A stretch of DNA of 64,000 nucleotides from Catillopecten margaritatus gill symbiont (lineage in GTDB: Bacteria > Pseudomonadota > Gammaproteobacteria > PS1 > Pseudothioglobaceae). The notes under the pieces are model-generated. The model was not told the DNA's origin and ran no database searches. It worked only from the letters and a program-made list of their open reading frames with translations. Shown here in pieces: positions 19,708-64,000 of the stretch; the first letter of the stretch is position 1; every line of letters begins with the position of its first letter. The translations under genes and the position numbers were made by a program. Where the stretch lies: the NCBI GenBank assembly GCA_037956075.1, contig CP138327.1, positions 1,372,296-1,436,295 on the forward strand, in the 5' to 3' direction.

Positions 19708-19875
19708 TGCAATATTTTACATTACTATAAAATTATAACAACCCAAGCACATTTTTGGTCTAAGCCATTTATGAGACCCCTGCATTGAGTATGGATACTG
19801 GATAAAATTGGTTTTTAGGCGGTATTCGTGCCTAATGTAGGGGGCTTATTATTAACTGAATTACTCAAAAAAGAC

Positions 19876-20739
19876 ATGATGAAATATTTTTTAAGAACAA
19901 TACAAACGGTAGTAACGATGATAATGCTCGGTGGGAGTCATCAATCATTAGCTAAAGAGTTTCAAACTTTTCCTCACGCTAATTTAGTTCAAGTAAATGA
20001 TGGAGACAGTTTTTATGTAAATACAGGTCAAGAAGATATACACATAAGGCTTTATTTTGTTGATTGTCCTGAAACTAAGATGGGGTCAACATCTGATGCA
20101 CAGCGTGTTCGGGAACAAATGAGATACTTTGGGCTTGTTGATGTAAAAGAAATGGTGTGGTTTGGAAATGAAGCAAGGGAATTTATTAAAAAGGAATTGT
20201 CTTCTGAATTCACTGTACATACAGTCTTTGCAGGTGCAATGGGTAGATCAAAAAAACGCAGAGTATATGGGATCATTGAAACTAAAAATGGAGATGACCT
20301 GGGAAGTTTGCTTGTAAAAAATGGGCTTTGCAGACCTCACGGTGTTGGCAGAAAATTACCAAATGGCGTCTCAAGAGATGAAATGTTTGAGAAGTTACGA
20401 GACTTAAAAGATGAAGCAATGTTACGAAGGGTTGGTGTGTGGGCTAAAAGTGATCCAAACAAAATAGCCGAGTTTCGAGAGACCCAGCGTAATGAAAATG
20501 CAGAGCTTAAAAAATTACAAAACGAATTAAATTATAAGATAACAGTTCAAAATAAATTAGATTTAAATACAGCCACCAGTCAACAACTTGAATCCATTAA
20601 AGGTATTGGACCAGCTCTAGCGCATAAAATTATTAATGCAAGACCTTATAAAAATATTGAAGACCTTCTAAAAGTAAAAGGTATTGGCCCAAAGTCTATT
20701 ATCAAAATTCGCCCTTATTTTTTTGATTCGGACGAGTAA
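19876..20739 (+). CDS. Secreted thermonuclease-like nuclease with helix-hairpin-helix tail
   Basis: About 287 residues from the ATG at 19876 (a GTG at 19828 is in frame). The N-terminal hydrophobic stretch and SLAKE suggest export. The SNase core follows: [22 protein letters not shown] (first catalytic Arg and Asp/Glu), [24 protein letters not shown] charged linker leads to a ComEA-type double HhH ([35 protein letters not shown]) for DNA binding. The role may be nutrient scavenging or DNA processing at the cell surface. It borders the accessory patch at 20740. Confidence 0.82.
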
Positions 20740-20766
20740 TGGACAAAAGTAGAAATCACAAGCCTG

Positions 20767-20915
20767 GCACCACGCTCATTCCAATCTTTTTGATGATGTG
20801 AGTTTTGTGCGGTTCTGATAACACGCCTTGGGTGGGGCATCATGATGGTTGCTTGTCCAGATTCATTCGTCACTTCTGCTATGGTATTGTCAGAGCCGTT
20901 TGGATACGAAGATTT
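20767..20915 (-). pseudogene. Degenerate copy of the purL 3' end
   Basis: On the minus strand the translation ([20 protein letters not shown], then [20 protein letters not shown]) is a diverged copy of the C terminus of the PurL protein encoded at 22262, in the same orientation. By eye the DNA is roughly 85-90% identical over ~145 bp. The catalytic HPER is HPRR, and both ends of the homology are abrupt. It is a relic of duplication, not a gene. Confidence 0.85.
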
Positions 20916-20924
20916 CCACCCCCT

Positions 20925-20992
20925 TGTCATCCCGAGCGTAGTCGAGGGATCTTACTCCCACAAAAGATCCCTCGGCTACGCTCGGGATGACA
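20925..20992. repeat. Inverted pair of the 29-bp dispersed palindromic element
   Basis: The left arm (20925-20953) and right arm (20964-20992) are reverse complements with one mismatch and a 10-base loop. The same ~68-bp structure occurs at 21985-22052 with perfect arms. As RNA it would form a very stable hairpin. No protein-coding content. Confidence 0.85.
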
Positions 20993-21042
20993 GTGGAGAT
21001 AAGGGGGTAGATAAAGGGACACAAACATTAATTATTTAAAAA

Positions 21043-21101
21043 CACCTAACAAATCATTCCAGCCGACCGCTAACGCGTCGGCTGAATTCAAGCACTAGAT
21101 G
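21043..21101. other. attC-like recombination site (left)
   Basis: This has the layout of an integron attC: an R''-like CCTAAC at 21045, an L'' CAGCCGAC (21060-21067), the centre with AACGCG, a perfectly complementary L' GTCGGCTG (21077-21084), and a weak R' (ACTAGATG). One extrahelical base breaks the pairing outside the L box, as in genuine attC stems. A near-identical copy lies at 21708-21768. The R' box is poor, so this may be a worn site. Confidence 0.6.
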
Positions 21102-21149
21102 TCGCTTTCCATCTTACTATTTTTCTTAATAGAAAGTTTGGAGAAAATT

Positions 21150-21365
21150 ATGACTAATAACAAGCAATTTTATTTTGAGGACTGTGAATTTAAAAAATCC
21201 AGCCTTTCTAAAAGTATTTCAGATATGTGTGTTGAAGTTGCAATTAATAATGATGGTGTTGGTGTTAGAGATTCTAAGGATAGCCAAAAAACAACATTGA
21301 ATTTTACTCATCAAGAATGGTCTGCTTTTATCAAAGGAGTTAAATTGAATGAATTTAACGAATAG
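21150..21365 (+). CDS. DUF397-like small protein in a cassette
   Basis: 71 residues from the ATG at 21150, which follows TTTGGAGAAA. The core (CVEVAINNDGVGVRDSKDSQ and LNFTHQEWSAFIKGVK) is the DUF397 pattern, a small domain abundant in Actinobacteria, where it sits beside helix-turn-helix regulators. It is unexpected in a gammaproteobacterium, suggesting lateral transfer. First gene of a three-gene group bracketed by attC-like repeats. Confidence 0.75.
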   Translation: MTNNKQFYFEDCEFKKSSLSKSISDMCVEVAINNDGVGVRDSKDSQKTTLNFTHQEWSAFIKGVKLNEFNE

Positions 21366-21449
21366 TAAATAAGAAGGTGTCACTTTTTTCATTTGTTTGG
21401 TGCTTTATCATACCAAAAGAACAAATAAGAAATGTGTTAAAATTCAGCT

Positions 21450-21626
21450 ATGAAAGAAAAAATTTCTGATTATTTATTGGATATTTCCAAACTCATTTTT
21501 GCAGGTGTTGTGTTAAGTGCTATCCTGCAAGTAGAGGGCGTGTCTAAATTAGTTATTTTATCAATAGGTATATATGCCACAATGATATTTGCTGGTATTG
21601 CCTTTATGTTAATAAGGAGTAAATAA
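21450..21626 (+). CDS. Small two-helix membrane protein (DUF6722-like)
   Basis: 58 residues: MKEKISDYLLDISKLIFAG, then two hydrophobic helices (IFAGVVLSAILQV and LVILSIGIYATMIFAGIAFML) and a basic end (IRSK). This resembles the small DUF6722-type membrane proteins. The start is the only ATG; a weak A-rich leader precedes it. Its stop overlaps the next ATG (TAATGG). Confidence 0.65.
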   Translation: MKEKISDYLLDISKLIFAGVVLSAILQVEGVSKLVILSIGIYATMIFAGIAFMLIRSK

Positions 21627-21715
21627 TGGAAGCACTAATTTTATTTTCCGGTCTTGCTATTGTTGGCACTATAGCATTTATTGCTGTTTTTTGGTATCAA
21701 CGTACACACACTTAA
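21626..21715 (+). CDS. 29-residue single-span membrane peptide
   Basis: MEALILFSGLAIVGTIAFIA continues to VFWYQRTHT. A strong ribosome site (AAGGAG) 6 bp upstream and start-stop overlap with the preceding gene argue that it is translated. It resembles small membrane peptides of transport complexes, but no family is assigned. Its stop codon lies inside the right attC-like site, as is typical of integron cassettes. Confidence 0.6.
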   Translation: MEALILFSGLAIVGTIAFIAVFWYQRTHT

Positions 21716-21768
21716 CAAATCATTCCAGCCGACCGCTAACGCGTCAGGTGATTTCAAGCGTTAAGTGC
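21708..21768. other. attC-like recombination site (right)
   Basis: This site carries a full R''/R' pair: CACTTAAC at the left and GTTAAGTG at the right, exact complements with the GTTRRRY core. Between them are the same AAATCATTC, CAGCCGAC and AACGCG blocks as in the left site, but L' is partly degraded (GTCAGGTG). The two sites are 667 bp apart, a normal cassette size. No integrase gene is in the window. Confidence 0.65.
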
Positions 21769-21984
21769 TGAATAACACCTTAATATTTAACTACTTTTTT
21801 GAAAATCAAGGGGCAGAGTAATTGATTTTTAAATCGTTCTGATTTTCTATCTCCATCCCTTGAAAAAAACCTAATTGGGCGTTTAATCTGATTCTCAAGT
21901 CTATCAACAAAATTCCCATCTCTCAATACCAAACCTTTATTGGTTGAGTTTCTGATCAAGTCAGTTGTTTTTATTGTCAACCCC

Positions 21985-22052
21985 TGTCATCCCGAGCGTA
22001 GCCGAGGGATCTTACTCCCACAAAAGATCCCTCGGCTACGCTCGGGATGACA
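21985..22052. repeat. Perfect inverted pair of the 29-bp dispersed element
   Basis: Arms 21985-22013 and 22024-22052 are perfect reverse complements around a 10-base loop (ACTCCCACAA). The loop and arms match the copy at 20925-20992, which suggests the pair is the mobile or amplified unit. Confidence 0.85.
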
Positions 22053-22173
22053 GTGTAAAATATACTCGGGATGACAGTATGAGATCTATGCATTAGATAT
22101 TGTCTTAAAAGCCAATCATTAATCTAGCTATTTTCACATTATTCCATGCTCTTTATTAGCAATATCACTTAGA

Positions 22174-22202
22174 AACTTACCCTAATATTTATAGGGTAAG
22201 TT
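22174..22202. other. Hairpin downstream of purL
   Basis: An 11-bp stem AACTTACCCTA/TAGGGTAAGTT with a 7-base loop, about 60-90 bp beyond the purL stop. No T-run follows on the purL strand, so termination is uncertain; it may stabilise the transcript 3' end. Confidence 0.55.
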
Positions 22203-22261
22203 GGTTAGTCTTGACAATAATACAAAGGGTTTTGCAAAAAAGATCAGGTTTATTTGGCAAT

Positions 22262-25200
22262 CTACCCAACCCAGACTCTGGCATTTTCAAACATCCGCAT
22301 CCACGGGCTTCGCTCATCCCAATCTTTTTGATGATGTGAGTTTTGCACGGCTCTGATAACTCGTTCTGGGTGGGGCATCATAATGGTTACTTGTCCAGAT
22401 TCATTCGTCATTCCTGCGATGGCGTTGTCGGAGCCGTTTGGATTGTGAGGGTAATTTTGGGTTGGGTTGGCATTGTGATCGACATATTGTAGGGCAATGT
22501 TATTTACACGGGCCTTGCCCGTGTAAATAGCGCGACCTTCGCCGTGGGCGAGGGTGATTGGCATTACTGAGTCTTCCATGTTTTTTAAGAAAATGGAGTT
22601 GGATTTTCCAATTTTAACGGAAGAAAAACGCGCTTCAAATTGTTCGGAAACATTGCGATTAAAGCTTGGCCAGTTTTGTGAACCTGGGATGATGTTAGTG
22701 AGGTTGGACATCATTTGGCAGCCATTACAGACACCTAAAGAGAAGCTGTCGTTGCGATTAAAAAAGGTTTCAAATTCGTCTTTGGCACGAGGGTTGTGCA
22801 GGATGGAGTTTGCCCAACCACGACCTGCACCTAAGACATCGCCATACGAAAAACCGCCACAGGCGACCAAACCCTTAAAGTCTGACAATGACAAACGACC
22901 CGATAGGATGTCGCTCATATGCACATCAACGGCTTCAAAACCTGCTTTGTTAAAGGCGACTGCCATTTCTATTTGTCCGTTGACGCCTTGCTCTCGCAAT
23001 ATTGCCACTTTAGGGCGATGGGTGAGGATGGATGGCGCTTGGTTAATGTCAAAAGTGAGTTTGGTTTGTAAGCCTGCGGTATTTTCTGCGACTAAATCAA
23101 ATTCTTGTTTGGCACATTCGGGATTATCTCTTAGTTTGGCAATTTCAAAAGAAGTTTTGCTCCACAGTTGCTGTAAAGTGGCACGCTTTTCGCTGTAATT
23201 GCCGATGTTAATTGTGTCGGTGGTATTTAGTGTGGCAATCGTGCGAGTGTGGTTTGATAATCCTGCTTTGGATAAGGCGTTGGTTACTGCATCTTTGTTG
23301 GCACTGCTCACTTGAATAACACAACCTAATTCTTCGTTGAACAATGTTTCAATGTCGCTTTCCACGATGTCTAAACCACAATGTGAGGCGAATGCCATTT
23401 CTAACAAACTAATCAACACTCCCCCATCGCTACGGTCGTGATAAGCAGTAATTAAACCATCTTTATTCAGTTGGTTAATCACAGTGAAGAATGCTTTAAA
23501 TAAAGCAGAATCATCCATATTCGGTGCAATATCGCCAATCTGATTGTAAACTTGTGCCAAGCACGAGCCACCCATACGATTTTGATTTTTTCCTAAGTCA
23601 ATTAACAATAATTCACTCTCAATGGTTGTATCCAGTAAAGGGGTGATTTGCACTCTGACATCAGGGGTTTTGGAAAAGGCGGTGATAACTAAAGAGAGTG
23701 GAGAGGTGACGGATTTGTCTTTGCCATTTTCTGTCCAAGCACTTTTCATACTCATCGAATCTTTACCCACTGGCACGGTTAAACCGAGTTCTGGACACAA
23801 ATCCATTCCAACTGCTCGGACTGCTTCAAATAATTTGGCATCTTCGCCTTTATGTCCGCTCGCACTCATCCAATTTGCACTCAAACTAATGTGGTGAATG
23901 TCTTCTACATAACCACCCAACATATTCGTCAACGCTTCACCAATCGTCATTCTTGCTGCGGCATTTGCATCACAAAGTGCTAACGGTGCTCGCTCGCCCA
24001 ATGACATAATCTCACCTTTGTAGCCGTCATAATCTGCAATAGAAATCGCACAATCTGCCACTGGCACTTGCCACGGTCCAACGAATTGGTCGCGTGCCAC
24101 CATGCCCGTTACACTTCTGTCGCCAATGGTGATTAGGAAGTTTTTACTGGCAACGGTGGGTAGTTGTAATATTCTTGAAATTGCATCATCCAGTTGAATG
24201 TTGCTAGTGTCTAAAGCATTGAGTTTAATCGGCTGTGTTACTGCGTCAATTGATGTTTTTGGTGGATTGCCGAGCAGCACTGCCATTGGCATTTCAATGG
24301 GATTATTTGCAAATAAATCGTCACTTAAAATCAATTCTTGTTCTTTGGTTGACTCGCCCAAAACAGCAAATGGCGCTCGTTCTCGCGCACAAATATTGCC
24401 AAATAATTCAAGGCTTTCATCGGCAATTGCCAGCACATAGCGTTCTTGTGATTCGTTACACCATACTTCTAATGGCGACATTTCTTTGTCATCATTTGGG
24501 ATATTACGCAGTTTGAATTTAGCGCCTTTACCCGAATCATTCACTAACTCGGGTAAGCCATTTGACAAGCCACCTGCACCAATATCGTGAATAGAAATAA
24601 TCGGATTTTTATCGCCTAAATTTGCACAGCGGTCAATGACTTCTTGTGCACGGCGCTCCATTTCTGGGTTGGCGCGTTGCACGGAGGCAAAATCTAAATC
24701 TTCACTTTGCTCACCACTTTTGATGCTTGACGCCGCGCCGCCACCCAGTCCAATCAACATCGCAGGACCACCCAGCACGATGATTTTACTGCCGACAGGG
24801 ATAATACCTTTTTCAATGTGTTGTTCTTGAATATGCCCCAAACCCCCTGCCAACATAATCGGCTTGTGGTAACCACGCACATCACCATCTGGGGTTTGTT
24901 GCTCGTAAGTTCTGAAATAACCCAGTGTGTTTGGGCGACCAAATTCGTTGTTAAAACTCGCCGCACCAATCGGGCCTTCAAGCATAATATCTAACGCTGA
25001 TTGAATTTGACTCGGCTTGCCATTATCTACTTCCCACGGTTGAACAGCGCCTTTAATTTTTAGATTAGAAACGCTGAAACCACACAAACCCACTTTTGGT
25101 TTTGAGCCTTTTCCCGTTGCCCCTTCATCACGAATTTCACCGCCCGAACCTGTCGCCGCACCTGGGTGTGGGGCAATTGCGGTGGGGTGATTGTGGGTTT

Positions 25201-43612: not shown

Positions 43613-43954
43613 CACCCTAGAAGATGGCATTTATTTAAATAAATATAGACACAAAAGAGCTAAAAAGCATAGCTCAACATAAGGCGAATGTTTGACTACC
43701 GCTTCAGTAGAAAATGTTTCAAGTTGTAAATATATTGACACTCTTATGGCTTGCTCTATTCTTTATCTTCCTATTTTTTTCCATAATCCTTGCTTATAAA
43801 GATTTTTATTAGGCTTTCTAGTCTAAAAGCAAAAAAAATAGTTAAATAGTTAAATAGTTACGGTAAAATACACAACATAATTTTATTAACGATTAACGAT
43901 TAACGATTAACGATTAACGATTAACGATTAACGATTAACGATTAACGATTAACG
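43613..43954 (+). promoter_or_regulatory. Adhesin 1 leader with promoter candidates
   Basis: A non-coding leader shared almost base for base with 50831-51138 and 60269-60644. TTGACA at 43735 and TATTCT at 43757 (16 bp apart) form a plausible promoter. A second -10-like TAAAAT lies at 43864, just before the heptamer array, after three AATAGTT-type repeats. A short frame (YNTLEDGIYLNKYRHKR) at its start has no start codon and is of unknown origin. No ribosome site is seen before the ATG. Confidence 0.6.
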
Positions 43955-43955
43955 A
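43886..43955 (+). repeat. Heptanucleotide tandem repeat, 10 copies, abutting adhesin 1 start
   Basis: Ten perfect TTAACGA units; the last A is the first base of the ATG. Copies before the other adhesins number 6 (51098-51139) and 15 (60541-60645). Confidence 0.97.
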
Positions 43956-46256
43956 TGAAAACACTATTAAAAAACGCCTGTTCAACTAATTATAATGCCA
44001 CTAACCTAATTACCCATGTTGCGTGGGTGGGTGGGGCACATTCTAGAGCGCTAAGCAGGCTTAAGCATTTTTTAGCTTTTGGCGCTTTGACTCTATCACT
44101 TAACGTTACCTCAGGTGGTGAGATTAACCAGTTTGACAAAGAAGCTTATCTTAACCTTGGACAACAGTACAGTGATAACAATACTCAAGTAGCTGTTAAA
44201 GAAGAAAACACAATTGATACACTCCTTAAAGAGATTGGCTCTTCTGTTCGTAATGCCTTGGGCGGTACAGATTCTGACAATGCCAATCAGCTTGGTAAAA
44301 AAATTACTGATAATTTAAAAAATAAAGCCAACAACACAGTGATTAATAAAACCGAAGGCTTTATTAATCAAAAAGCCAATGAACTTGCTAATAGTATTGG
44401 CAACGGTAGAACTGAAATCTCTGTGCATAAATTAGAGTCTAATAACCCAACATATAGTCTTAAAACCATTCAACCATTGACTGAGCTTAATACAGATTCA
44501 ACAGAGCTAACTTTTATCCAAGCTCAAATTAACTCTGGTGAAAACCATGGTGAGCGCCGTGACACTATTAATTTAGGCCTTGGACAGCGTTACCTACTTG
44601 AAGGTGGTCAGTCTATTGCTGGTATTAATCTATTCACTGATTATGAAACCGAGTCTAAGCACAAGCGTGCATCGCTAGGTTTGGAATACCAAAGAGCTAA
44701 CTTTAGTGCCAATATTAATAAATACTACCCATTGTCAGATAAGAAAGTTATTGGTGATTACACTGAAGAGCCACTAGCAGGACATGACATTAAACTAACG
44801 GGTCAAGTACCTTATCTATCTTGGGCAAAAATCAAAGGCACGCACTATTATTGGGATGCCAAAGTTGGCGACAATATTAAAGGTACTATTTTAGGTGTTG
44901 AAATAGAGCTTAATCCTTCTACTACGCTAGAAATAGGTACTGAAAACTCAAACACAGCTGAGCGTGCAAGCTATGCACGCCTAAGCGCACAACTGCCATT
45001 TAAAGATGGCGAAGCATTAACTAATTTTAAAGTCTCTGATCAAGCTTTTGCTAACTCAAATATTGTTACCCTAACCGATCTTGACTTTGTTGAAAGATCT
45101 AACAAAATCCGTATTGAAAAACTCTTAAATGGTGTTAGCGTGGTTTTGGGTGAATACAACGCTCCTACAGTAGGCTCTACCTGTACACTTTACAATGCAT
45201 CAAATGTTGCTATTGCCAATGGCTCTGGTGTAACAGGCGCTGATGGCAGTGTAACACTGTCAAATGTTGTTCTACCTACTGGACTAATTTCTAGCTCTTG
45301 TAATGCCATTGGTACCTATATCGATGAAGCCACAGGTGTGACCACTACTAGCTCTCCAGTGCTCAGAGCGGCAAAAATTTATTCAGGCACAGGAGACTTA
45401 ATTCTTCTAGCCTCACCTCTATCAGAAATTGCTTATCAATTAGCTAATGCTGGTACTTTAGCTAATGATATAACCACTAAAAATACACAAATTGCAACAG
45501 CATTTGGTATAAGTGGCGTTGATTTTACCGCCACCATCCCAACGGATCTTAACACTATCACTGCCGCTAATGATGATGCGGGTAAATTTGGTACTGTGCT
45601 AGCAGCAGTCTCACAAATGTCTGAGAATGCAGGACATGATGATACACAGTCAACTGCAAATAATGGTGGTGATAATATCCACGCCAATGAAACTATCCAA
45701 GAGCTTGTTGTTGATATGGCTGATGGTGATATTGATGGTATTGCAGATGGACAAGGAAAAACTCTTAATCTTAATCAAGCTATAAACAATTTTAAAACAG
45801 GCTCTGGTGCTAACAACCCAACATCAGATACTGGAAACACTAATGCAGGCAATGTAGATATTGTAACAACCACCCCTAGTGTTATTTTAAATAAAACCGC
45901 AGTAACTCTTGATGAAAACGGTGTAACAACTTACACAGTAGTCCTTAACACGCAACCAACTGGTAGTGTTACGATCACCCCAGTGAGTGCTGATACCGGT
46001 GCTGCCTCCGTATCAGGTGTAATGACCTTTACCACAGCTAACTGGAGCACAGCGCAAACAGTTACAGTCACTGGTGTAGCTGATGTTAATGCAACTGATG
46101 AGACCTGTAACCTGATTATTAGTCATACTATTACAGGTGCTGATTATGCTAGTGTGACTTCTGCTGATAGTGATTGCTACCGTAGTCACTAACGTTAATG
46201 AGGGTAGTGCTTGGATTTGCGATTAGCAACAGTGGTCAAATCACCGTGGCCGATGT

Positions 46257-48870
46257 AGCATCAGTGCCCAAACTCGCTCTATTGCTGAGAACTCTGCCAA
46301 TGCAACTAATGTGGGTGCAGTTCTTGTAACCACAGGTAGTCCAACTGGCTTTAGCATTACCAGCGGTAACACTAACACCGCCTTTGCGATTAGCAACAGT
46401 GGTCAAATCACCGTGGCCGATGTCAACCAGCTTGATTTTGAAACCACGACTAGCTACACGCTAGCAGTGCAGATCACCAAAGCTGACACCACGTCACAAA
46501 GTGCTAATATTACGGTTAATGTCACTAACGTTAATGAGGGTAGTGCTTCGATCAGTGCCCAAACTCGTTCTATTGCTGAGAACTCTGCCAATGCAACTAA
46601 TGTGGGTGCAGTTCTTGTAACCACAGGTAGTCCAACTGGCTTTAGCATTACCAGCGGTAACACTAACACCGCCTTTGCGATTAGCAACAGTGGTCAAATC
46701 ACCGTGGCCGATGTCAACCAGCTTGATTTTGAAACCACGACTAGCTACACGCTAGCAGTGCAGATCACCAAAGCTGACACCACGTCACAAAGTGCTAATA
46801 TTACGGTTAATGTCACTAACGTTAATGAGGGTAGTGCTTCGATCAGTGCCCAAACTCGTTCTATTGCTGAGAACTCTGCCAATGCAACTAATGTGGGTGC
46901 AGTTCTTGTAACCACAGGTAGTCCAACTGGCTTTAGCATTACCAGCGGTAACACTAACACCGCCTTTGCGATTAGCAACAGTGGTCAAATCACCGTGGCC
47001 GATGTCAACCAGCTTGATTTTGAAACCACGACTAGCTACACGCTAGCAGTGCAGATCACCAAAGCTGACACCACGTCACAAAGTGCTAATATTACGGTTA
47101 ATGTCACTAACGTTAATGAGGGTAGTGCTGTTTCGATCAGTGCCCAAACTCGTTCTATTGCTGAGAACTCTGCCAATGCAACTAATGTGGGTGCAGTTCT
47201 TGTAACCACAGGTAGTCCAACTGGCTTTAGCATTACCAGCGGTAACACTAACACCGCCTTTGCGATTAGCAACAGTGGTCAAATCACCGTGGCCGATGTC
47301 AACCAGCTTGATTTTGAAACCACGACTAGCTACACGCTAGCAGTGCAGATCACCAAAGCTGACACCACGTCACAAAGTGCTAATATTACGGTTAATGTCA
47401 CTAACGTTAATGAGGGTAGTGCTGTTTCGATCAGTGCCCAAACTCGTTCTATTGCTGAGAACTCTGCCAATACAACTAATGTGGGTGCAGTTCTTGTAAC
47501 CACAGGTAGTCCAACTGGCTTTAGCATTACCAGCGGTAACACTAACACCGCCTTTGCGATTAGCAACAGTGGTCAAATCACCGTGGCCGATGCCAACCAG
47601 CTTGATTTTGAAACCACGACTAGCTACACGCTAGCAGTGCAGATCACCAAAGCTGACACCACGTCACAAAGTGCTAATATTACGGTTAATGTCACTAACG
47701 TTAATGAGGGTAGTGCTGTTTCGATCAGTGCCCAAACTCGTTCTATTGCTGAGAACTCTGCCAATGCAACTAATGTGGGTGCAGTTCTTGTAACCACAGG
47801 TAGTCCAACTGGCTTTAGCATTACCAGCGGTAACACTAACACCGCCTTTGCGATTAGCAACAGTGGTCAAATCACCGTGGCCGATGTCAACCAGCTTGAT
47901 TTTGAAACCACGACTAGCTACACGCTAGCAGTGCAGATCACCAAAGCTGACACCACGTCACAAAGTGCTAATATTACGGTTAATGTCACTAACGTTAATG
48001 AGGGTAGTGCTGTTTCGATCAGTGCCCAAACTCGTTCTATTGCTGAGAACTCTGCCAATGCAACTAATGTGGGTGCAGTTCTTGTAACCACAGGTAGTCC
48101 AACTGGCTTTAGCATTACCAGCGGTAACACTAACACCGCCTTTGCGATTAGCAACAGTGGTCAAATCACCGTGGCCGATGCCAACCAGCTTGATTTTGAA
48201 ACCACGACTAGCTACACGCTAGCAGTGCAGATCACCAAAGCTGACACCACGTCACAAAGTGCTAATATTACGGTTAATGTCACTAACGTTAATGAGGGTA
48301 GTGCTGTTTCGATCAGTGCCCAAACTCGTTCTATTGCTGAGAACTCTGCCAATGCAACTAATGTGGGTGCAGTTCTTGTAACCACAGGTAGTCCAACTGG
48401 CTTTAGCATTACCAGCGGTAACACTAACACCGCCTTTGCGATTAGCAACAGTGGTCAAATCACCGTGGCCGATGCCAACCAGCTTGATTTTGAAACCACG
48501 ACTAGCTACACGCTAGCAGTGCAGATCACCAAAGCTGACACCACGTCACAAAGTGCTAATATTACGGTTAATGTCACTAACGTTAATGAGGGTAGTGCTG
48601 TTTCGATCAGTGCCCAAACTCGTTCTATTGCTGAGAACTCTGCCAATGCAACTAATGTGGGTGCAGTTCTTGTAACCACAGGTAGTCCAACTGGCTTTAG
48701 CATTACCAGCGGTAACACTAACACCGCCTTTGCGATTAGCAACAGTGGTCAAATCACCGTGGCCGATGTCAACCAGCTTGATTTTGAAACCACGACTAGC
48801 TACACGCTAGCAGTGCAGATCACCAAAGCTGACACCACGTCACAAAGTGCTAATATTACGGTTAATGTCA
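46257..48870 (+). repeat. Nine near-identical 291/294-bp cadherin-like repeats (adhesin 1)
   Basis: Each unit begins SISAQTRSIAENSAN and ends NITVNVTNVNEGSA. Units differ at only three places: Ala/Thr in SAN(A/T)TN, Val/Ala in VAD(V/A)NQ, and an optional extra GTT codon in the linker (SAS versus SAVS). The first two linkers lack the codon; later ones have it. Confidence 0.93.
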
Positions 48871-49208
48871 CAGATGTTGTAGAACTAGCCAGCATAACCA
48901 TCGGCACTCAAACTTGGAGTGCATCTAATGTTTCATTAGTGCCTACTACAAATAATGTTCTAGGTACGGATTATTGGAATGCTTATGTGGGTACTAATGG
49001 TTCTGGAGATACAAGCGATGAAGACGGTTATTACTACACTTGGGATGCAGCGATGAACGTTTGTCCTAGTGGCTGGAGTTTGCCATCTGATGCTGATTGG
49101 AAAGTCTTAGAAGGTCAATTAGGTATGAGTCTTGCTAATCAAGAAGCAACGGGTTGGCGTGGTACTGATGAAGGAACAAAACTAAAAGTAGGTGGCTCTA
49201 GTGGCTTC

Positions 49209-50830: not shown

Positions 50831-51138
50831 CACCCTAGAAGATGGCATTTATTTAAATAAATATAGACACAAAAGAGCTAAAAAGCATAGCTCAACATAA
50901 GGCGAATGTTTGACTACCGCTTCAGTAGAAAATGTTTCAAGTTGTAAATATATTGACACTCTTATGGCTTGCTCTATTCTTTATCTTCCTATTTTTTTCC
51001 ATAATCCTTGCTTATAAAGATTTTTATTAGGCTTTCTAGTCTAAAAGCAAAAAAAATAGTTAAATAGTTAAATAGTTACGGTAAAATACAACAACGATTA
51101 ACGATTAACGATTAACGATTAACGATTAACGATTAACG
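50831..51138 (+). promoter_or_regulatory. Adhesin 2 leader
   Basis: A copy of the adhesin 1 leader, with TTGACA at 50953, a TATTCT 16 bp further and TAAAAT at 51082. It is shorter because a small segment (TAATTTTAT) and four heptamers are missing. Confidence 0.6.
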
Positions 51139-51139
51139 A
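51098..51139 (+). repeat. Heptanucleotide tandem repeat, 6 copies, abutting adhesin 2 start
   Basis: Six perfect TTAACGA units preceded by a partial one (CAACGA); the last A begins the ATG. Confidence 0.97.
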
Positions 51140-54100
51140 TGAAAACACTATTAAAAAACGCCTGTTCAACTAATTATAATGCCACTAACCTAATTACCCA
51201 TGTTGCGTGGGTGGGTGGGGCACATTCTAGAGCGCTAAGCAGGCTTAAGCATTTTTTAGCTTTTGGCGCTTTGACTCTATCACTTAACGTTACCTCAGGT
51301 GGTGAGATTAACCAGTTTGACAAAGAAGCTTATCTTAACCTTGGACAACAGTACAGTGATAACAATACTCAAGTAGCTGTTAAAGAAGAAAACACAATTG
51401 ATACACTCCTTAAAGAGATTGGCTCTTCTGTTCGTAATGCCTTGGGCGGTACAGATTCTGACAATGCCAATCAGCTTGGTAAAAAAATTACTGATAATTT
51501 AAAAAATAAAGCCAACAACACAGTGATTAATAAAACCGAAGGCTTTATTAATCAAAAAGCCAATGAACTTGCTAATAGTATTGGCAACGGTAGAACTGAA
51601 ATCTCTGTGCATAAATTAGAGTCTAATAACCCAACATATAGTCTTAAAACCATTCAACCATTGACTGAGCTTAATACAGATTCAACAGAGCTAACTTTTA
51701 TCCAAGCTCAAATTAACTCTGGTGAAAACCATGGTGAGCGCCGTGACACTATTAATTTAGGCCTTGGACAGCGTTACCTACTTGAAGGTGGTCAGTCTAT
51801 TGCTGGTATTAATCTATTCACTGATTATGAAACCGAGTCTAAGCACAAGCGTGCATCGCTAGGTTTGGAATACCAAAGAGCTAACTTTAGTGCCAATATT
51901 AATAAATACTACCCATTGTCAGATAAGAAAGTTATTGGTGATTACACTGAAGAGCCACTAGCAGGACATGACATTAAACTAACGGGTCAAGTACCTTATC
52001 TATCTTGGGCAAAAATCAAAGGCACGCACTATTATTGGGATGCCAAAGTTGGCGACAATATTAAAGGTACTATTTTAGGTGTTGAAATAGAGCTTAATCC
52101 TTCTACTACGCTAGAAATAGGTACTGAAAACTCAAACACAGCTGAGCGTGCAAGCTATGCACGCCTAAGCGCACAACTGCCATTTAAAGATGGCGAAGCA
52201 TTAACTAATTTTAAAGTCTCTGATCAAGCTTTTGCTAACTCAAATATTGTTACCCTAACCGATCTTGACTTTGTTGAAAGATCTAACAAAATCCGTATTG
52301 AAAAACTCTTAAATGGTGTTAGCGTGGTTTTGGGTGAATACAACGCTCCTACAGTAGGCTCTACCTGTACACTTTACAATGCATCAAATGTTGCTATTGC
52401 CAATGGCTCTGGTGTAACAGGCGCTGATGGCAGTGTAACACTGTCAAATGTTGTTCTACATACTGGACTAATTTCTAGCTCTTGTAATGCCATTGGTACC
52501 TATATCGATGAAGCCACAGGTGTGACCACTACTAGCTCTCCAGTGCTCAGAGCGGCAAAAATTTATTCAGGCACAGGAGACTTAATTCTTCTAGCCTCAC
52601 CTCTATCAGAAATTGCTTATCAATTAGCTAATGCTGGTACTTTAGCTAATGATATAACCACTAAAAATACACAAATTGCAACAGCATTTGGTATAAGTGG
52701 CGTTGATTTTACCGCCACCATCCCAACGGATCTTAACACTATCACTGCCGCTAATGATGATGCGGGTAAATTTGGTACTGTGCTAGCAGCAGTCTCACAA
52801 ATGTCTGAGAATGCAGGACATGATGATACACAGTCAACTGCAAATAATGGTGGTGATAATATCCACGCCAATGAAACTATCCAAGAGCTTGTTGTTGATA
52901 TGGCTGATGGTGATATTGATGGTATTGCAGATGGACAAGGAAAAACTCTTAATCTTAATCAAGCTATAAACAATTTTAAAACAGGCTCTGGTGCTAACAA
53001 CCCAACATCAGATACTGGAAACACTAATGCAGGCAATGTAGATATTGTAACAACCACCCCTAGTGTTATTTTAAATAAAACCGCAGTAACTCTTGATGAA
53101 AACGGTGTAACAACTTACACAGTAGTCCTTAACACGCAACCAACTGGTAGTGTTACGATCACCCCAGTGAGTGCTGATACCGGTGCTGCCTCCGTATCAG
53201 GTGTAATGACCTTTACCACAGCTAACTGGAGCACAGCGCAAACAGTTACAGTCACTGGTGTAGCTGATGTTAATGCAACTGATGAGACTGTAACCATTAG
53301 TCATACTATTACAGGTGCTGATTATGCTAGTGTGACTTCTGCTGATATGATTGCTACCGTAGTGGATTTTAGCATCAGTGCCCAAACTCGCTCTATTGCT
53401 GAGAACTCTGCCAATGCAACTAATGTGGGTGCAGTTCTTGTAACCACAGGTAGTCCAACTGGCTTTAGCATTACCAGCGGTAACACTAACACCGCCTTTG
53501 CGATTAGCAACAGTGGTCAAATCACCGTGGCCGATGTCAACCAGCTTGATTTTGAAACCACGACTAGCTACACGCTAGCAGTGCAGATCACCAAAGCTGA
53601 CACCACGTCACAAAGTGCTAATATTACGGTTAATGTCACTAACGTTAATGAGGGTAGTGCTTCGATCAGTGCCCAAACTCGTTCTATTGCTGAGAACTCT
53701 GCCAATGCAACTAATGTGGGTGCAGTTCTTGTAACCACAGGTAGTCCAACTGGCTTTAGCATTACCAGCGGTAACACTAACACCGCCTTTGCGATTAGCA
53801 ACAGTGGTCAAATCACCGTGGCCGATGCCAACCAGCTTGATTTTGAAACCACGACTAGCTACACGCTAGCAGTGCAGATCACCAAAGCTGACACCACGTC
53901 ACAAAGTGCTAATATTACGGTTAATGTCACTAACGTTAATGAGGGTAGTGCTGTTTCGATCAGTGCCCAAACTCGTTCTATTGCTGAGAACTCTGCCAAT
54001 ACAACTAATGTGGGTGCAGTTCTTGTAACCACAGGTAGTCCAACTGGCTTTAGCATTACCAGCGGTAACACTAACACCGCCTTTGCGATTAGCAACAGTG

Positions 54101-57100
54101 GTCAAATCACCGTGGCCGATGTCAACCAGCTTGATTTTGAAACCACGACTAGCTACACGCTAGCAGTGCAGATCACCAAAGCTGACACCACGTCACAAAG
54201 TGCTAATATTACGGTTAATGTCACTAACGTTAATGAGGGTAGTGCTTCGATCAGTGCCCAAACTCGTTCTATTGCTGAGAACTCTGCCAATGCAACTAAT
54301 GTGGGTGCAGTTCTTGTAACCACAGGTAGTCCAACTGGCTTTAGCATTACCAGCGGTAACACTAACACCGCCTTTGCGATTAGCAACAGTGGTCAAATCA
54401 CCGTGGCCGATGCCAACCAGCTTGATTTTGAAACCACGACTAGCTACACGCTAGCAGTGCAGATCACCAAAGCTGACACCACGTCACAAAGTGCTAATAT
54501 TACGGTTAATGTCACTAACGTTAATGAGGGTAGTGCTGTTTCGATCAGTGCCCAAACTCGTTCTATTGCTGAGAACTCTGCCAATACAACTAATGTGGGT
54601 GCAGTTCTTGTAACCACAGGTAGTCCAACTGGCTTTAGCATTACCAGCGGTAACACTAACACCGCCTTTGCGATTAGCAACAGTGGTCAAATCACCGTGG
54701 CCGATGCCAACCAGCTTGATTTTGAAACCACGACTAGCTACACGCTAGCAGTGCAGATCACCAAAGCTGACACCACGTCACAAAGTGCTAATATTACGGT
54801 TAATGTCACTAACGTTAATGAGGGTAGTGCTGTTTCGATCAGTGCCCAAACTCGTTCTATTGCTGAGAACTCTGCCAATACAACTAATGTGGGTGCAGTT
54901 CTTGTAACCACAGGTAGTCCAACTGGCTTTAGCATTACCAGCGGTAACACTAACACCGCCTTTGCGATTAGCAACAGTGGTCAAATCACCGTGGCCGATG
55001 TCAACCAGCTTGATTTTGAAACCACGACTAGCTACACGCTAGCAGTGCAGATCACCAAAGCTGACACCACGTCACAAAGTGCTAATATTACGGTTAATGT
55101 CACTAACGTTAATGAGGGTAGTGCTGTTTCGATCAGTGCCCAAACTCGTTCTATTGCTGAGAACTCTGCCAATGCAACTAATGTGGGTGCAGTTCTTGTA
55201 ACCACAGGTAGTCCAACTGGCTTTAGCATTACCAGCGGTAACACTAACACCGCCTTTGCGATTAGCAACAGTGGTCAAATCACCGTGGCCGATGCCAACC
55301 AGCTTGATTTTGAAACCACGACTAGCTACACGCTAGCAGTGCAGATCACCAAAGCTGACACCACGTCACAAAGTGCTAATATTACGGTTAATGTCACTAA
55401 CGTTAATGAGGGTAGTGCTGTTTCGATCAGTGCCCAAACTCGTTCTATTGCTGAGAACTCTGCCAATACAACTAATGTGGGTGCAGTTCTTGTAACCACA
55501 GGTAGTCCAACTGGCTTTAGCATTACCAGCGGTAACACTAACACCGCCTTTGCGATTAGCAACAGTGGTCAAATCACCGTGGCCGATGCCAACCAGCTTG
55601 ATTTTGAAACCACGACTAGCTACACGCTAGCAGTGCAGATCACCAAAGCTGACACCACGTCACAAAGTGCTAATATTACGGTTAATGTCACTAACGTTAA
55701 TGAGGGTAGTGCTGTTTCGATCAGTGCCCAAACTCGTTCTATTGCTGAGAACTCTGCCAATACAACTAATGTGGGTGCAGTTCTTGTAACCACAGGTAGT
55801 CCAACTGGCTTTAGCATTACCAGCGGTAACACTAACACCGCCTTTGCGATTAGCAACAGTGGTCAAATCACCGTGGCCGATGCCAACCAGCTTGATTTTG
55901 AAACCACGACTAGCTACACGCTAGCAGTGCAGATCACCAAAGCTGACACCACGTCACAAAGTGCTAATATTACGGTTAATGTCACTAACGTTAATGAGGG
56001 TAGTGCTGTTTCGATCAGTGCCCAAACTCGTTCTATTGCTGAGAACTCTGCCAATACAACTAATGTGGGTGCAGTTCTTGTAACCACAGGTAGTCCAACT
56101 GGCTTTAGCATTACCAGCGGTAACACTAACACCGCCTTTGCGATTAGCAACAGTGGTCAAATCACCGTGGCCGATGTCAACCAGCTTGATTTTGAAACCA
56201 CGACTAGCTACACGCTAGCAGTGCAGATCACCAAAGCTGACACCACGTCACAAAGTGCTAATATTACGGTTAATGTCACTAACGTTAATGAGGGTAGTGC
56301 TGTTTCGATCAGTGCCCAAACTCGTTCTATTGCTGAGAACTCTGCCAATACAACTAATGTGGGTGCAGTTCTTGTAACCACAGGTAGTCCAACTGGCTTT
56401 AGCATTACCAGCGGTAACACTAACACCGCCTTTGCGATTAGCAACAGTGGTCAAATCACCGTGGCCGATGCCAACCAGCTTGATTTTGAAACCACGACTA
56501 GCTACACGCTAGCAGTGCAGATCACCAAAGCTGACACCACGTCACAAAGTGCTAATATTACGGTTAATGTCACTAACGTTAATGAGGGTAGTGCTGTTTC
56601 GATCAGTGCCCAAACTCGTTCTATTGCTGAGAACTCTGCCAATACAACTAATGTGGGTGCAGTTCTTGTAACCACAGGTAGTCCAACTGGCTTTAGCATT
56701 ACCAGCGGTAACACTAACACCGCCTTTGCGATTAGCAACAGTGGTCAAATCACCGTGGCCGATGCCAACCAGCTTGATTTTGAAACCACGACTAGCTACA
56801 CGCTAGCAGTGCAGATCACCAAAGCTGACACCACGTCACAAAGTGCTAATATTACGGTTAATGTCACAGATGTTGTAGAACTAGCCAGCATAACCATCGG
56901 CACTCAAACTTGGAGTGCATCTAATGTTTCATTAGTGCCTACTACAAATAATGTTCTAGGTACGGATTATTGGAATGCTTATGTGGGTACTAATGGTTAT
57001 GGAGATACAAGCGATGAAGACGGTTATTACTACACTTGGGATGCAGCGATGAACGTTTGTCCTAGTGGCTGGAGTTTGCCATCTGATGCTGATTGGAAAG

Positions 57101-60150: not shown

Positions 60151-60644
60151 AATCTATTCTTTTAATTAATTATTAGAAGCTTGCTTTTCAAGCTCCATGT
60201 TAGGAGAGGGGATTGGACAGTCATTAATCATACTTGTATAGTATTTAAAAAAAATATTTTTTTCATTATAACACCCTAGAAGATGGCATTTATTTAAATA
60301 AATATAGACACAAAAGAGCTAAAAAGCATAGCTCAACATAAGGCGAATGTTTGACTACCGCTTCAGTAGAAAATGTTTCAAGTTGTAAATATATTGACAC
60401 TCTTATGGCTTGCTCTATTCTTTATCTTCCTATTTTTTTCCATAATCCTTGCTTATAAAGATTTTTATTAGGCTTTCTAGTCTAAAAGCAAAAAAAATAG
60501 TTAAATAGTTAAATAGTTACGGTATAATACACAACATAAATTAACGATTAACGATTAACGATTAACGATTAACGATTAACGATTAACGATTAACGATTAA
60601 CGATTAACGATTAACGATTAACGATTAACGATTAACGATTAACG
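60151..60644 (+). promoter_or_regulatory. Adhesin 3 leader and preceding unique DNA
   Basis: From 60266 (TTATAACACC) the sequence equals the other adhesin leaders; before it the DNA is unique and there is no TR, avd or RT. TTGACA at 60395 has the same TATTCT partner. The second -10 box is TATAAT here (60523-60528), a perfect consensus, where the other two leaders have TAAAAT. Confidence 0.6.
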
Positions 60645-60645
60645 A
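60541..60645 (+). repeat. Heptanucleotide tandem repeat, 15 copies, abutting adhesin 3 start
   Basis: Fifteen perfect TTAACGA units; the last A begins the ATG. Confidence 0.97.
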
Positions 60646-63600
60646 TGAAAACACTATTAAAAAACGCCTGTTCAACTAATTATAATGCCACTAACCTAAT
60701 TACCCATGTTGCGTGGGTGGGTGGGGCACATTCTAGAGCGCTAAGCAGGCTTAAGCATTTTTTAGCTTTTGGCGCTTTGACTCTATCACTTAACGTTACC
60801 TCAGGTGGTGAGATTAACCAGTTTGACAAAGAAGCTTATCTTAACCTTGGACAACAGTACAGTGATAACAATACTCAAGTAGCTGTTAAAGAAGAAAACA
60901 CAATTGATACACTCCTTAAAGAGATTGGCTCTTCTGTTCGTAATGCCTTGGGCGGTACAGATTCTGACAATGCCAATCAGCTTGGTAAAAAAATTACTGA
61001 TAATTTAAAAAATAAAGCCAACAACACAGTGATTAATAAAACCGAAGGCTTTATTAATCAAAAAGCCAATGAACTTGCTAATAGTATTGGCAACGGTAGA
61101 ACTGAAATCTCTGTGCATAAATTAGAGTCTAATAACCCAACATATAGTCTTAAAACCATTCAACCATTGACTGAGCTTAATACAGATTCAACAGAGCTAA
61201 CTTTTATCCAAGCTCAAATTAACTCTGGTGAAAACCATGGTGAGCGCCGTGACACTATTAATTTAGGCCTTGGACAGCGTTACCTACTTGAAGGTGGTCA
61301 GTCTATTGCTGGTATTAATCTATTCACTGATTATGAAACCGAGTCTAAGCACAAGCGTGCATCGCTAGGTTTGGAATACCAAAGAGCTAACTTTAGTGCC
61401 AATATTAATAAATACTACCCATTGTCAGATAAGAAAGTTATTGGTGATTACACTGAAGAGCCACTAGCAGGACATGACATTAAACTAACGGGTCAAGTAC
61501 CTTATCTATCTTGGGCAAAAATCAAAGGCACGCACTATTATTGGGATGCCAAAGTTGGCGACAATATTAAAGGTACTATTTTAGGTGTTGAAATAGAGCT
61601 TAATCCTTCTACTACGCTAGAAATAGGTACTGAAAACTCAAACACAGCTGAGCGTGCAAGCTATGCACGCCTAAGCGCACAACTGCCATTTAAAGATGGC
61701 GAAGCATTAACTAATTTTAAAGTCTCTGATCAAGCTTTTGCTAACTCAAATATTGTTACCCTAACCGATCTTGACTTTGTTGAAAGATCTAACAAAATCC
61801 GTATTGAAAAACTCTTAAATGGTGTTAGCGTGGTTTTGGGTGAATACAACGCTCCTACAGTAGGCTCTACCTGTACACTTTACAATGCATCAAATGTTGC
61901 TATTGCCAATGGCTCTGGTGTAACAGGCGCTGATGGCAGTGTAACACTGTCAAATGTTGTTCTACATGCTGGACTAGTTTCTAGCTCTTGTAATGCCATT
62001 GGTACCTATATCGATGAAGCCACAGGTGTGACCACTACTAGCTCTCCAGTGCTCAGAGCGGCAAAAATTTATTCAGGCACAGGAGACTTAATTCTTCTAG
62101 CCTCACCTCTATCAGAAATTGCTTATCAATTAGCTTATGCTGGTACTTTAGCTAATGATATAACCACTAAAAATACACAAATTGCAACAGCATTTGGTAT
62201 AAGTGGCGTTGATTTTACCGCCACCATCCCAACGGATCTTAACACTATCACTGCCGCTAATGATGATGCGGGTAAATTTGGTACTGTGCTAGCAGCAGTC
62301 TCACAAATGTCTGAGAATGCAGGACATGATGATACACAGTCAACTGCAAATAATGGTGGTGATAATATCCACGCCAATGAAACTATCCAAGAGCTTGTTG
62401 TTGATATGGCTGATGGTGATATTGATGGTATTGCAGATGGACAAGGAAAAACTCTTAATCTTAATCAAGCTATAAACAATTTTAAAACAGGCTCTGGTGC
62501 TAACAACCCAACATCAGATACTGGAAACACTAATGCAGGCAATGTAGATATTGTAACAACCACCCCTAGTGTTATTTTAAATAAAACCGCAGTAACTCTT
62601 GATGAAAACGGTGTAACAACTTACACAGTAGTCCTTAACACGCAACCAACTGGTAGTGTTACGATCACCCCAGTGAGTGCTGATACCGGTGCTGCCTCCG
62701 TATCAGGTGTAATGACCTTTACCACAGCTAACTGGAGCACAGCGCAAACAGTTACAGTCACTGGTGTAGCTGATGTTAATGCAACTGATGAGACTGTAAC
62801 CATTAGTCATACTATTACAGGTGCTGATTATGCTAGTGTGACTTCTGCTGATGTGATTGCTACCGTAGTGGATTTTAGCATCAGTGCCCAAACTCGCTCT
62901 ATTGCTGAGAACTCTGCCAATACAACTAATGTGGGTGCAGTTCTTGTAACCACAGGTAGTCCAACTGGCTTTAGCATTACCAGCGGTAACACTAACACCG
63001 CCTTTGCGATTAGCAACAGTGGTCAAATCACCGTGGCCGATGTCAACCAGCTTGATTTTGAAACCACGACTAGCTACACGCTAGCAGTGCAGATCACCAA
63101 AGCTGACACCACGTCACAAAGTGCTAATATTACGGTTAATGTCACTAACGTTAATGAGGGTAGTGCTTCGATCAGTGCCCAAACTCGTTCTATTGCTGAG
63201 AACTCTGCCAATGCAACTAATGTGGGTGCAGTTCTTGTAACCACAGGTAGTCCAACTGGCTTTAGCATTACCAGCGGTAACACTAACACCGCCTTTGCGA
63301 TTAGCAACAGTGGTCAAATCACCGTGGCCGATGCCAACCAGCTTGATTTTGAAACCACGACTAGCTACACGCTAGCAGTGCAGATCACCAAAGCTGACAC
63401 CACGTCACAAAGTGCTAATATTACGGTTAATGTCACTAACGTTAATGAGGGTAGTGCTTCGATCAGTGCCCAAACTCGTTCTATTGCTGAGAACTCTGCC
63501 AATACAACTAATGTGGGTGCAGTTCTTGTAACCACAGGTAGTCCAACTGGCTTTAGCATTACCAGCGGTAACACTAACACCGCCTTTGCGATTAGCAACA

Positions 63601-64000
63601 GTGGTCAAATCACCGTGGCCGATGTCAACCAGCTTGATTTTGAAACCACGACTAGCTACACGCTAGCAGTGCAGATCACCAAAGCTGACACCACGTCACA
63701 AAGTGCTAATATTACGGTTAATGTCACTAACGTTAATGAGGGTAGTGCTGTTTCGATCAGTGCCCAAACTCGTTCTATTGCTGAGAACTCTGCCAATGCA
63801 ACTAATGTGGGTGCAGTTCTTGTAACCACAGGTAGTCCAACTGGCTTTAGCATTACCAGCGGTAACACTAACACCGCCTTTGCGATTAGCAACAGTGGTC
63901 AAATCACCGTGGCCGATGCCAACCAGCTTGATTTTGAAACCACGACTAGCTACACGCTAGCAGTGCAGATCACCAAAGCTGACACCACGTCACAAAGTGC
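60645..64000 (+). CDS. Adhesin 3: inverse autotransporter with cadherin-like repeats (partial)
   Basis: Frame open from the ATG to the window end (~1118 codons). The signal, barrel, Ig-like and Calx-beta-like parts equal those of adhesin 2 except for scattered substitutions (HAGLVSSS for HTGLISSS, QLAYAG for QLANAG). The first four cadherin-like repeats are present, then the window ends, so its FISUMP tip and VR are not seen. It is not preceded by a TR-avd cassette, and may represent the ancestral arrangement of the locus. Confidence 0.88.
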   Translation, partial: MKTLLKNACSTNYNATNLITHVAWVGGAHSRALSRLKHFLAFGALTLSLNVTSGGEINQFDKEAYLNLGQQYSDNNTQVAVKEENTIDTLLKEIGSSVRNALGGTDSDNANQLGKKITDNLKNKANNTVINKTEGFINQKANELANSIGNGRTEISVHKLESNNPTYSLKTIQPLTELNTDSTELTFIQAQINSGENHGERRDTINLGLGQRYLLEGGQSIAGINLFTDYETESKHKRASLGLEYQRANFSANINKYYPLSDKKVIGDYTEEPLAGHDIKLTGQVPYLSWAKIKGTHYYWDAKVGDNIKGTILGVEIELNPSTTLEIGTENSNTAERASYARLSAQLPFKDGEALTNFKVSDQAFANSNIVTLTDLDFVERSNKIRIEKLLNGVSVVLGEYNAPTVGSTCTLYNASNVAIANGSGVTGADGSVTLSNVVLHAGLVSSSCNAIGTYIDEATGVTTTSSPVLRAAKIYSGTGDLILLASPLSEIAYQLAYAGTLANDITTKNTQIATAFGISGVDFTATIPTDLNTITAANDDAGKFGTVLAAVSQMSENAGHDDTQSTANNGGDNIHANETIQELVVDMADGDIDGIADGQGKTLNLNQAINNFKTGSGANNPTSDTGNTNAGNVDIVTTTPSVILNKTAVTLDENGVTTYTVVLNTQPTGSVTITPVSADTGAASVSGVMTFTTANWSTAQTVTVTGVADVNATDETVTISHTITGADYASVTSADVIATVVDFSISAQTRSIAENSANTTNVGAVLVTTGSPTGFSITSGNTNTAFAISNSGQITVADVNQLDFETTTSYTLAVQITKADTTSQSANITVNVTNVNEGSASISAQTRSIAENSANATNVGAVLVTTGSPTGFSITSGNTNTAFAISNSGQITVADANQLDFETTTSYTLAVQITKADTTSQSANITVNVTNVNEGSASISAQTRSIAENSANTTNVGAVLVTTGSPTGFSITSGNTNTAFAISNSGQITVADVNQLDFETTTSYTLAVQITKADTTSQSANITVNVTNVNEGSAVSISAQTRSIAENSANATNVGAVLVTTGSPTGFSITSGNTNTAFAISNSGQITVADANQLDFETTTSYTLAVQITKADTTSQS
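62877..64000 (+). repeat. Cadherin-like repeats of adhesin 3 (at least four)
   Basis: Same unit as in adhesins 1 and 2; the first two linkers lack the extra codon, the third has it. It runs into the window edge. Confidence 0.92.

Follow-up and report, generated by a model that had tools for sequence, protein, structure and literature searches.

Two repeats of about 60 bp bracket three very small genes in the stretch of 64,000 nucleotides that we analysed (the window) from the chromosome of the Catillopecten margaritatus gill symbiont. A sequence-only reading of this locus had taken it for an integron gene cassette without an integrase, and had suggested that the three genes may act together. 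The locus thus raises the questions of whether the repeats are indeed attC sites, how such a cassette came to stand in this chromosome, and whether its genes form one system.

The repeats and the DNA between and around them

The two direct repeats (21037-21122 and 21703-21788) share 79% identity across 86 nt and hold the left site at 21043..21101 and the right site at 21709..21767, both on the plus strand. The R'' boxes, ACCTAAC on the left and ACTTAAC on the right, both fit RYYYAAC, and the two copies have in common the CAGCCGACCGCTAACGCG stretch and an extrahelical base of 1 nt. In the right site, R'' and R' form the exact pair CACTTAAC...GTTAAGTG, and R' fits GTTRRRY. The left site has intact L'' and L' arms, whereas its R' box reads ACTAGAT and does not fit GTTRRRY, so that the GTT core, where integrases cut, is gone. 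The arms of the right site, L' CAGGTG and L'' CAGCCG, mismatch at two pairs. Each of these arm types occurs with matching arms elsewhere in the genome, and the right site resembles a fusion of two attC types at its midpoint. The box assignment of the sequence-only reading therefore stands for the exact right-hand pair and the extrahelical base, but it had missed both the destroyed left R' and the chimeric right arms.

Folded as single-stranded DNA, the left site reached -11.1 and -11.7 kcal/mol (z -3.9) and none of 200 shuffles was as good; the right site reached -10.4 kcal/mol for the top and -11.7 kcal/mol for the bottom strand (z ~-3.2), and two and one of 200 shuffles, respectively, did as well. 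Both sites form an imperfect hairpin with L''/L' arms and an extrahelical base, the right one with its two mismatched arm pairs. We built a covariance model from nine of the genome's sites; it scored 81.8 and 80.6 bits at the two repeats and 15.2 bits at the next best place in the window. These scores are in-sample, as both repeats had helped to build the model. The same model found this type of site near the integrase gene intI in five related genomes (G045, G044, G050, G039 and G071; E 2e-14 to 4e-18), none of which had been used in building it. The left site is 95% identical over 40 nt (E 9e-9) to the attC of the blaDIM-1 cassette of Pseudomonas plasmids and 85% identical to that of the blaGIM-1 cassette, and in both plasmid records the cassette gene lies directly behind an annotated IntI1 and has its stop at the site. 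Ten sequences were aligned in this comparison. Among nine related sequences, a number that makes the result supportive only, the arm pairs covary: one pair changes from GC to CG, and another is CG, UA or GC. When the partners were shifted by 1-3 columns, the share of paired cells in these nine fell from 82% to 22-31%. Since fold, model score and homologues lie far above chance, we conclude that both repeats are integron attC sites.

All three open reading frames between the sites lie on the plus strand and are as the sequence-only reading had described them. The first (21150..21365, with a further in-frame ATG at 21099) encodes a DUF397 protein of 71 aa (PF04149, E 3e-16) with no adjoining HTH gene. 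The second (21450..21626) encodes a two-helix membrane protein of 58 aa that matches the Pfam model of DUF6722 (PF20482, E 1.8e-10) with 41.4 bits against a curated cut-off of 27. The third (21626..21715) encodes a one-helix peptide of 29 aa; its start codon overlaps the stop of the 58-aa gene, and its own stop, a TAA at 21713-21715, falls within R'' of the right attC, as expected of a gene cassette.

The cassette is part of a larger insert of 2.55 kb (19708..22257) between purL and a 218-aa YgjP-like gene. This insert was not found at the corresponding place in G052 and other genomes of the genus: in G052 the YgjP-like gene follows the purL stop almost directly, and in G050 some 400 bp of other DNA lie between the two. 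Besides the cassette and a REP-like repeat, the insert contains an SNase-HHH gene at about 19828-20739, two copies of a 75-bp hairpin repeat (20921..20995 and 21981..22055; 97% identical) and, on the minus strand, a duplicate of the 3' end of purL that is 133 bp long (20773..20905, 88% identical to 22311-22443). A clean cassette-sized insertion at an exact empty site was thus not found at purL, which shows only the compound insert. A joint search of the flanks of six other cassettes in the genome gave no clean empty site either, as synteny stops at gene ends and gene order is too rearranged.

Two further observations concern the window. The hairpin repeat on both sides of the cassette, GTCATCCCGAGCGTAG[C/T]CGAGGGATCTT..., is dispersed, with further partial copies near 434, 516, 33878, 37009 and 39605. 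Three similar units (43836-48871, 51054-56867 and 60495-64000) each carry a (AAATAGTT)3 tract followed by ATTAACG in 10.3, 6.9 and 15.3 tandem copies, respectively, and then a long array in which a unit of 291-294 bp is repeated 8.9, 11.9 and at least 3.8 times with 98-99% likeness. They resemble giant genes for repeat proteins whose upstream tracts could vary by slippage.

Scattered sites in a genome without integron integrase

In the whole genome of the symbiont, a single contig of 1,542,691 bp (1.54 Mb), the integron-integrase model gave nothing above its cut-off, and the only two tyrosine recombinases were XerD and an XerC-like protein that fell slightly short of its cut-off. The claim that the cassette lacks an integrase thus extends to the entire genome, and a complete integron with intI and attI is not present. 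The covariance model detected 11 attC sites at E<1e-7, near 200, 334, 449, 472 (two), 712, 963, 1285, 1393, 1394 and 1541 kb, and one remnant; pairs of sites remain at 472 kb and in the window. The further copies of the repeat, some ten in number, stand in cassette-like contexts: among the reading frames that end at or near R'' there are a ParE/RelB pair (L005), a BrnT/CopG-type pair (L008) and small ORFs without a name. Such toxin-antitoxin pairs and small ORFs are the usual content of cassettes. Just before the 472-kb pair lies a gene for a BsuBI/PstI-type restriction endonuclease (L006 292-1278, near 471 kb of the genome).

The same type of attC site occurs in 20 of the 83 genomes of the family, usually at many loci and regardless of whether intI is kept. 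In G052, for example, seven sites extend from 10 to 1463 kb, and intI is at 1185 kb. In G039, G044 and G050, intI adjoins a TSUP permease gene, and beyond the cassettes glmM follows in G039 and G050. The symbiont has the TSUP gene without intI, and a search of this locus for a remnant of intI found none. A literature search yielded nothing on integrons in connection with Bathymodiolus, SUP05 or Thioglobaceae.

With two attC sites that stand 607 bp apart in a genome lacking intI, the locus is a CALIN. Very probably, it is a gene cassette from an integron that has become stranded in the chromosome, and IntI would have dispersed it at attG-type sites before intI was lost. The family has a chromosomal integron with intI beside the TSUP permease gene. 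The integrase of the family or of a donor would take up cassette attC sites as folded single strands and join the cassettes to ordinary chromosomal sites of the attG type, leaving single cassettes all over the genome, and the symbiont's own lineage would then have lost intI. We infer the dispersal from the distribution of the sites. Loss of intI is the simplest reading, although the relatives may instead have gained the gene horizontally. As it is now bounded, the cassette can probably not be cut out: with the left R' core destroyed and the right arms chimeric, it looks frozen.

True attC sites could also have been scattered by rearrangement and by homologous recombination between the repeats of one broken ancestral array, with no part played by IntI and attG sites. 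Such a breakup would fit the strongly rearranged gene order among the species, the hairpin repeats on either side of the cassette, the chimeric right site and the persistence of pairs of sites at 472 kb and in the window. However, most sites are single and their cargo is unrelated, and the scatter recurs in many genomes, some of which keep intI elsewhere. We consider this explanation rather unlikely.

A third explanation involves a resident transposase. A REP-like repeat of 19 bp (GGGACACAAACATTAATTA, 21016..21034, plus strand) lies 8 bp before the left attC, which is one of six attC sites, the remnant included, that have this repeat on their 5' side at a fixed distance. The remaining copies with at most one mismatch are all around the genome's own RAYT (Y1_Tnp) transposase gene (L042 1460-2651, 655.5-656.7 kb of the genome), which is flanked by four of them. 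Either the REP-like repeat landed once and was then carried along as part of a joint unit, or the foot of attC hairpins is a preferred target of the transposase. The whole repeat could accordingly be imagined as a REP/MITE-like element moved by RAYT, its likeness to attC helping the movement or marking the target and the genes being passengers. This is improbable, since the REP-like repeat is absent at five of the symbiont's own sites, including the right one here, and at nearly all sites of the relatives, and since the site is homologous to attC beside integrases. Finally, chance hairpins or transcription terminators, to which the hairpins of both repeats might point, can practically be dismissed, as the search returned no terminator-like site and homologues of the site adjoin intI in five genomes and follow IntI1 on plasmids.

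The two membrane genes and the DUF397 gene

At all eight loci examined, a gene for a two-helix protein of 57-69 aa is directly followed by one for a one-helix peptide of 29-40 aa, which mostly starts with ME; against this, a coupled hydrophobic ORF stood behind only one of 107 long ORFs in the background. Apart from the window, the pair is present in the 472-kb cassette of the same genome, in G045, where it stands with attC, in G129 from another family of the class (61% and 66% identical to the pair in the window; no attC seen), on the plasmid pRGF00007, on the viral contig IMGVR_UViG_3300037453_000643 and on two Methylophaga plasmids, where the peptide is missing from the gene table. DUF6722 is matched by five of the eight two-helix proteins and not by those of the 472-kb cassette and the Methylophaga plasmids, which we grouped with the others by size, helices, arrangement and weak mutual similarity. 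Similar peptides end at attC sites of G036 and G042, where no intact gene for a two-helix protein precedes them. When viral contigs were scanned with single proteins, there was no match. We conclude that the DUF6722 gene and its coupled peptide gene are a recurring two-gene module, described here for the first time.

The 58-aa protein belongs to a family that has no function assigned, and our literature search found no paper naming DUF6722. The coupled peptide had no match in Pfam, NCBIfam, PHROGs or PADLOC and falls outside all libraries searched, and none of the protein-family libraries searched names a function for the pair. Most likely, the two products would form a small complex in the membrane, and their genes would move together. 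The pair might be a membrane addiction or stress module comparable to the toxin-antitoxin pairs of sister cassettes, a guess guided by those pairs, by the mobility of the two genes and by their overlap. Tentatively, we can picture an undescribed mobile membrane system (for addiction, phage exclusion or membrane stress) for which integron cassettes, plasmids and phage-like elements would serve as vehicles throughout Gammaproteobacteria and probably in other groups.

The DUF397 gene behaves differently. It adjoins the pair in the window only, and elsewhere the pair stands without it. DUF397 was found in two of 369 genomes of the class; its nearest relative here is in a Legionellales MAG, without attC. 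A search for attC at the DUF397 relatives in G086, the Legionellales MAG and a Kaiserbacteria MAG found none, and the membrane pair was not beside DUF397 relatives in the stretches read, of which the Legionellales one is partly masked. We also found no solved structure resembling the DUF397 protein by sequence. One system of DUF397 and the membrane genes was thus rejected, as no attC was found at the three DUF397 relatives and no pair in the stretches read beside them, and the pair recurs without DUF397. Of the proposed cooperation of all three genes, the part that holds is the recurrence of the two membrane genes as a pair; DUF397 occurs apart from it elsewhere and looks like an extra gene outside the two-gene module. 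In G086, which belongs to another gammaproteobacterial family, the DUF397 gene lies between the short, near-identical direct repeats acgttcgcat[t/c]tagaggc (L099 1425-1445 and 1824-1844), a hint at movement there too.

Relation to known systems and implications

Sets of attC sites without an integron integrase are known as CALIN or SALIN (PMC12690207, PMC12444791). The locus resembles them in having two attC sites around genes and no integrase nearby, and differs in that the integrase is missing genome-wide and the sites are spread over some nine loci. In Xanthomonas, attC clusters without integrase keep conserved places (PMC12444791), in contrast to the scatter in the symbiont. Integration of cassettes at chromosomal attG sites was described by Loot et al. 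(2024, Nat Microbiol 9:228-240), as reported in PMC12901181, PMC12444791 and PMC12690207; to the extent of these accounts, both cases have cassettes outside arrays at many chromosomal places, but that work was experimental, whereas integration in the symbiont would follow from the distribution of sites. The class 1 cassettes of blaDIM-1 and blaGIM-1 (NZ_LR822050, NC_021087) share the attC sequence type and the gene stop at the site, and differ in being mobile, in the adjacent IntI1 and in their cargo. The XRE-DUF397 pairs of actinobacteria, which were proposed to be toxin-antitoxin pairs (PMC2701414, PMC6262351, PMC10364602), although fourteen such pairs of Streptomyces proved to be regulators instead (PMC10364602), have the small DUF397 protein in common with the cassette, among whose ORFs there is no HTH gene.

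The locus is therefore of a known kind, a CALIN, in an instructive setting, and the two-gene membrane module is the new lead. Since its second gene can escape annotation owing to its very small size, this micro-module may be far commoner than gene tables suggest. The symbiont itself offers a clear natural case of cassettes that persist, scattered in a small genome, after the integrase has gone, while relatives still keep theirs, and this combination makes the spread of cassettes outside arrays testable across species and strains.
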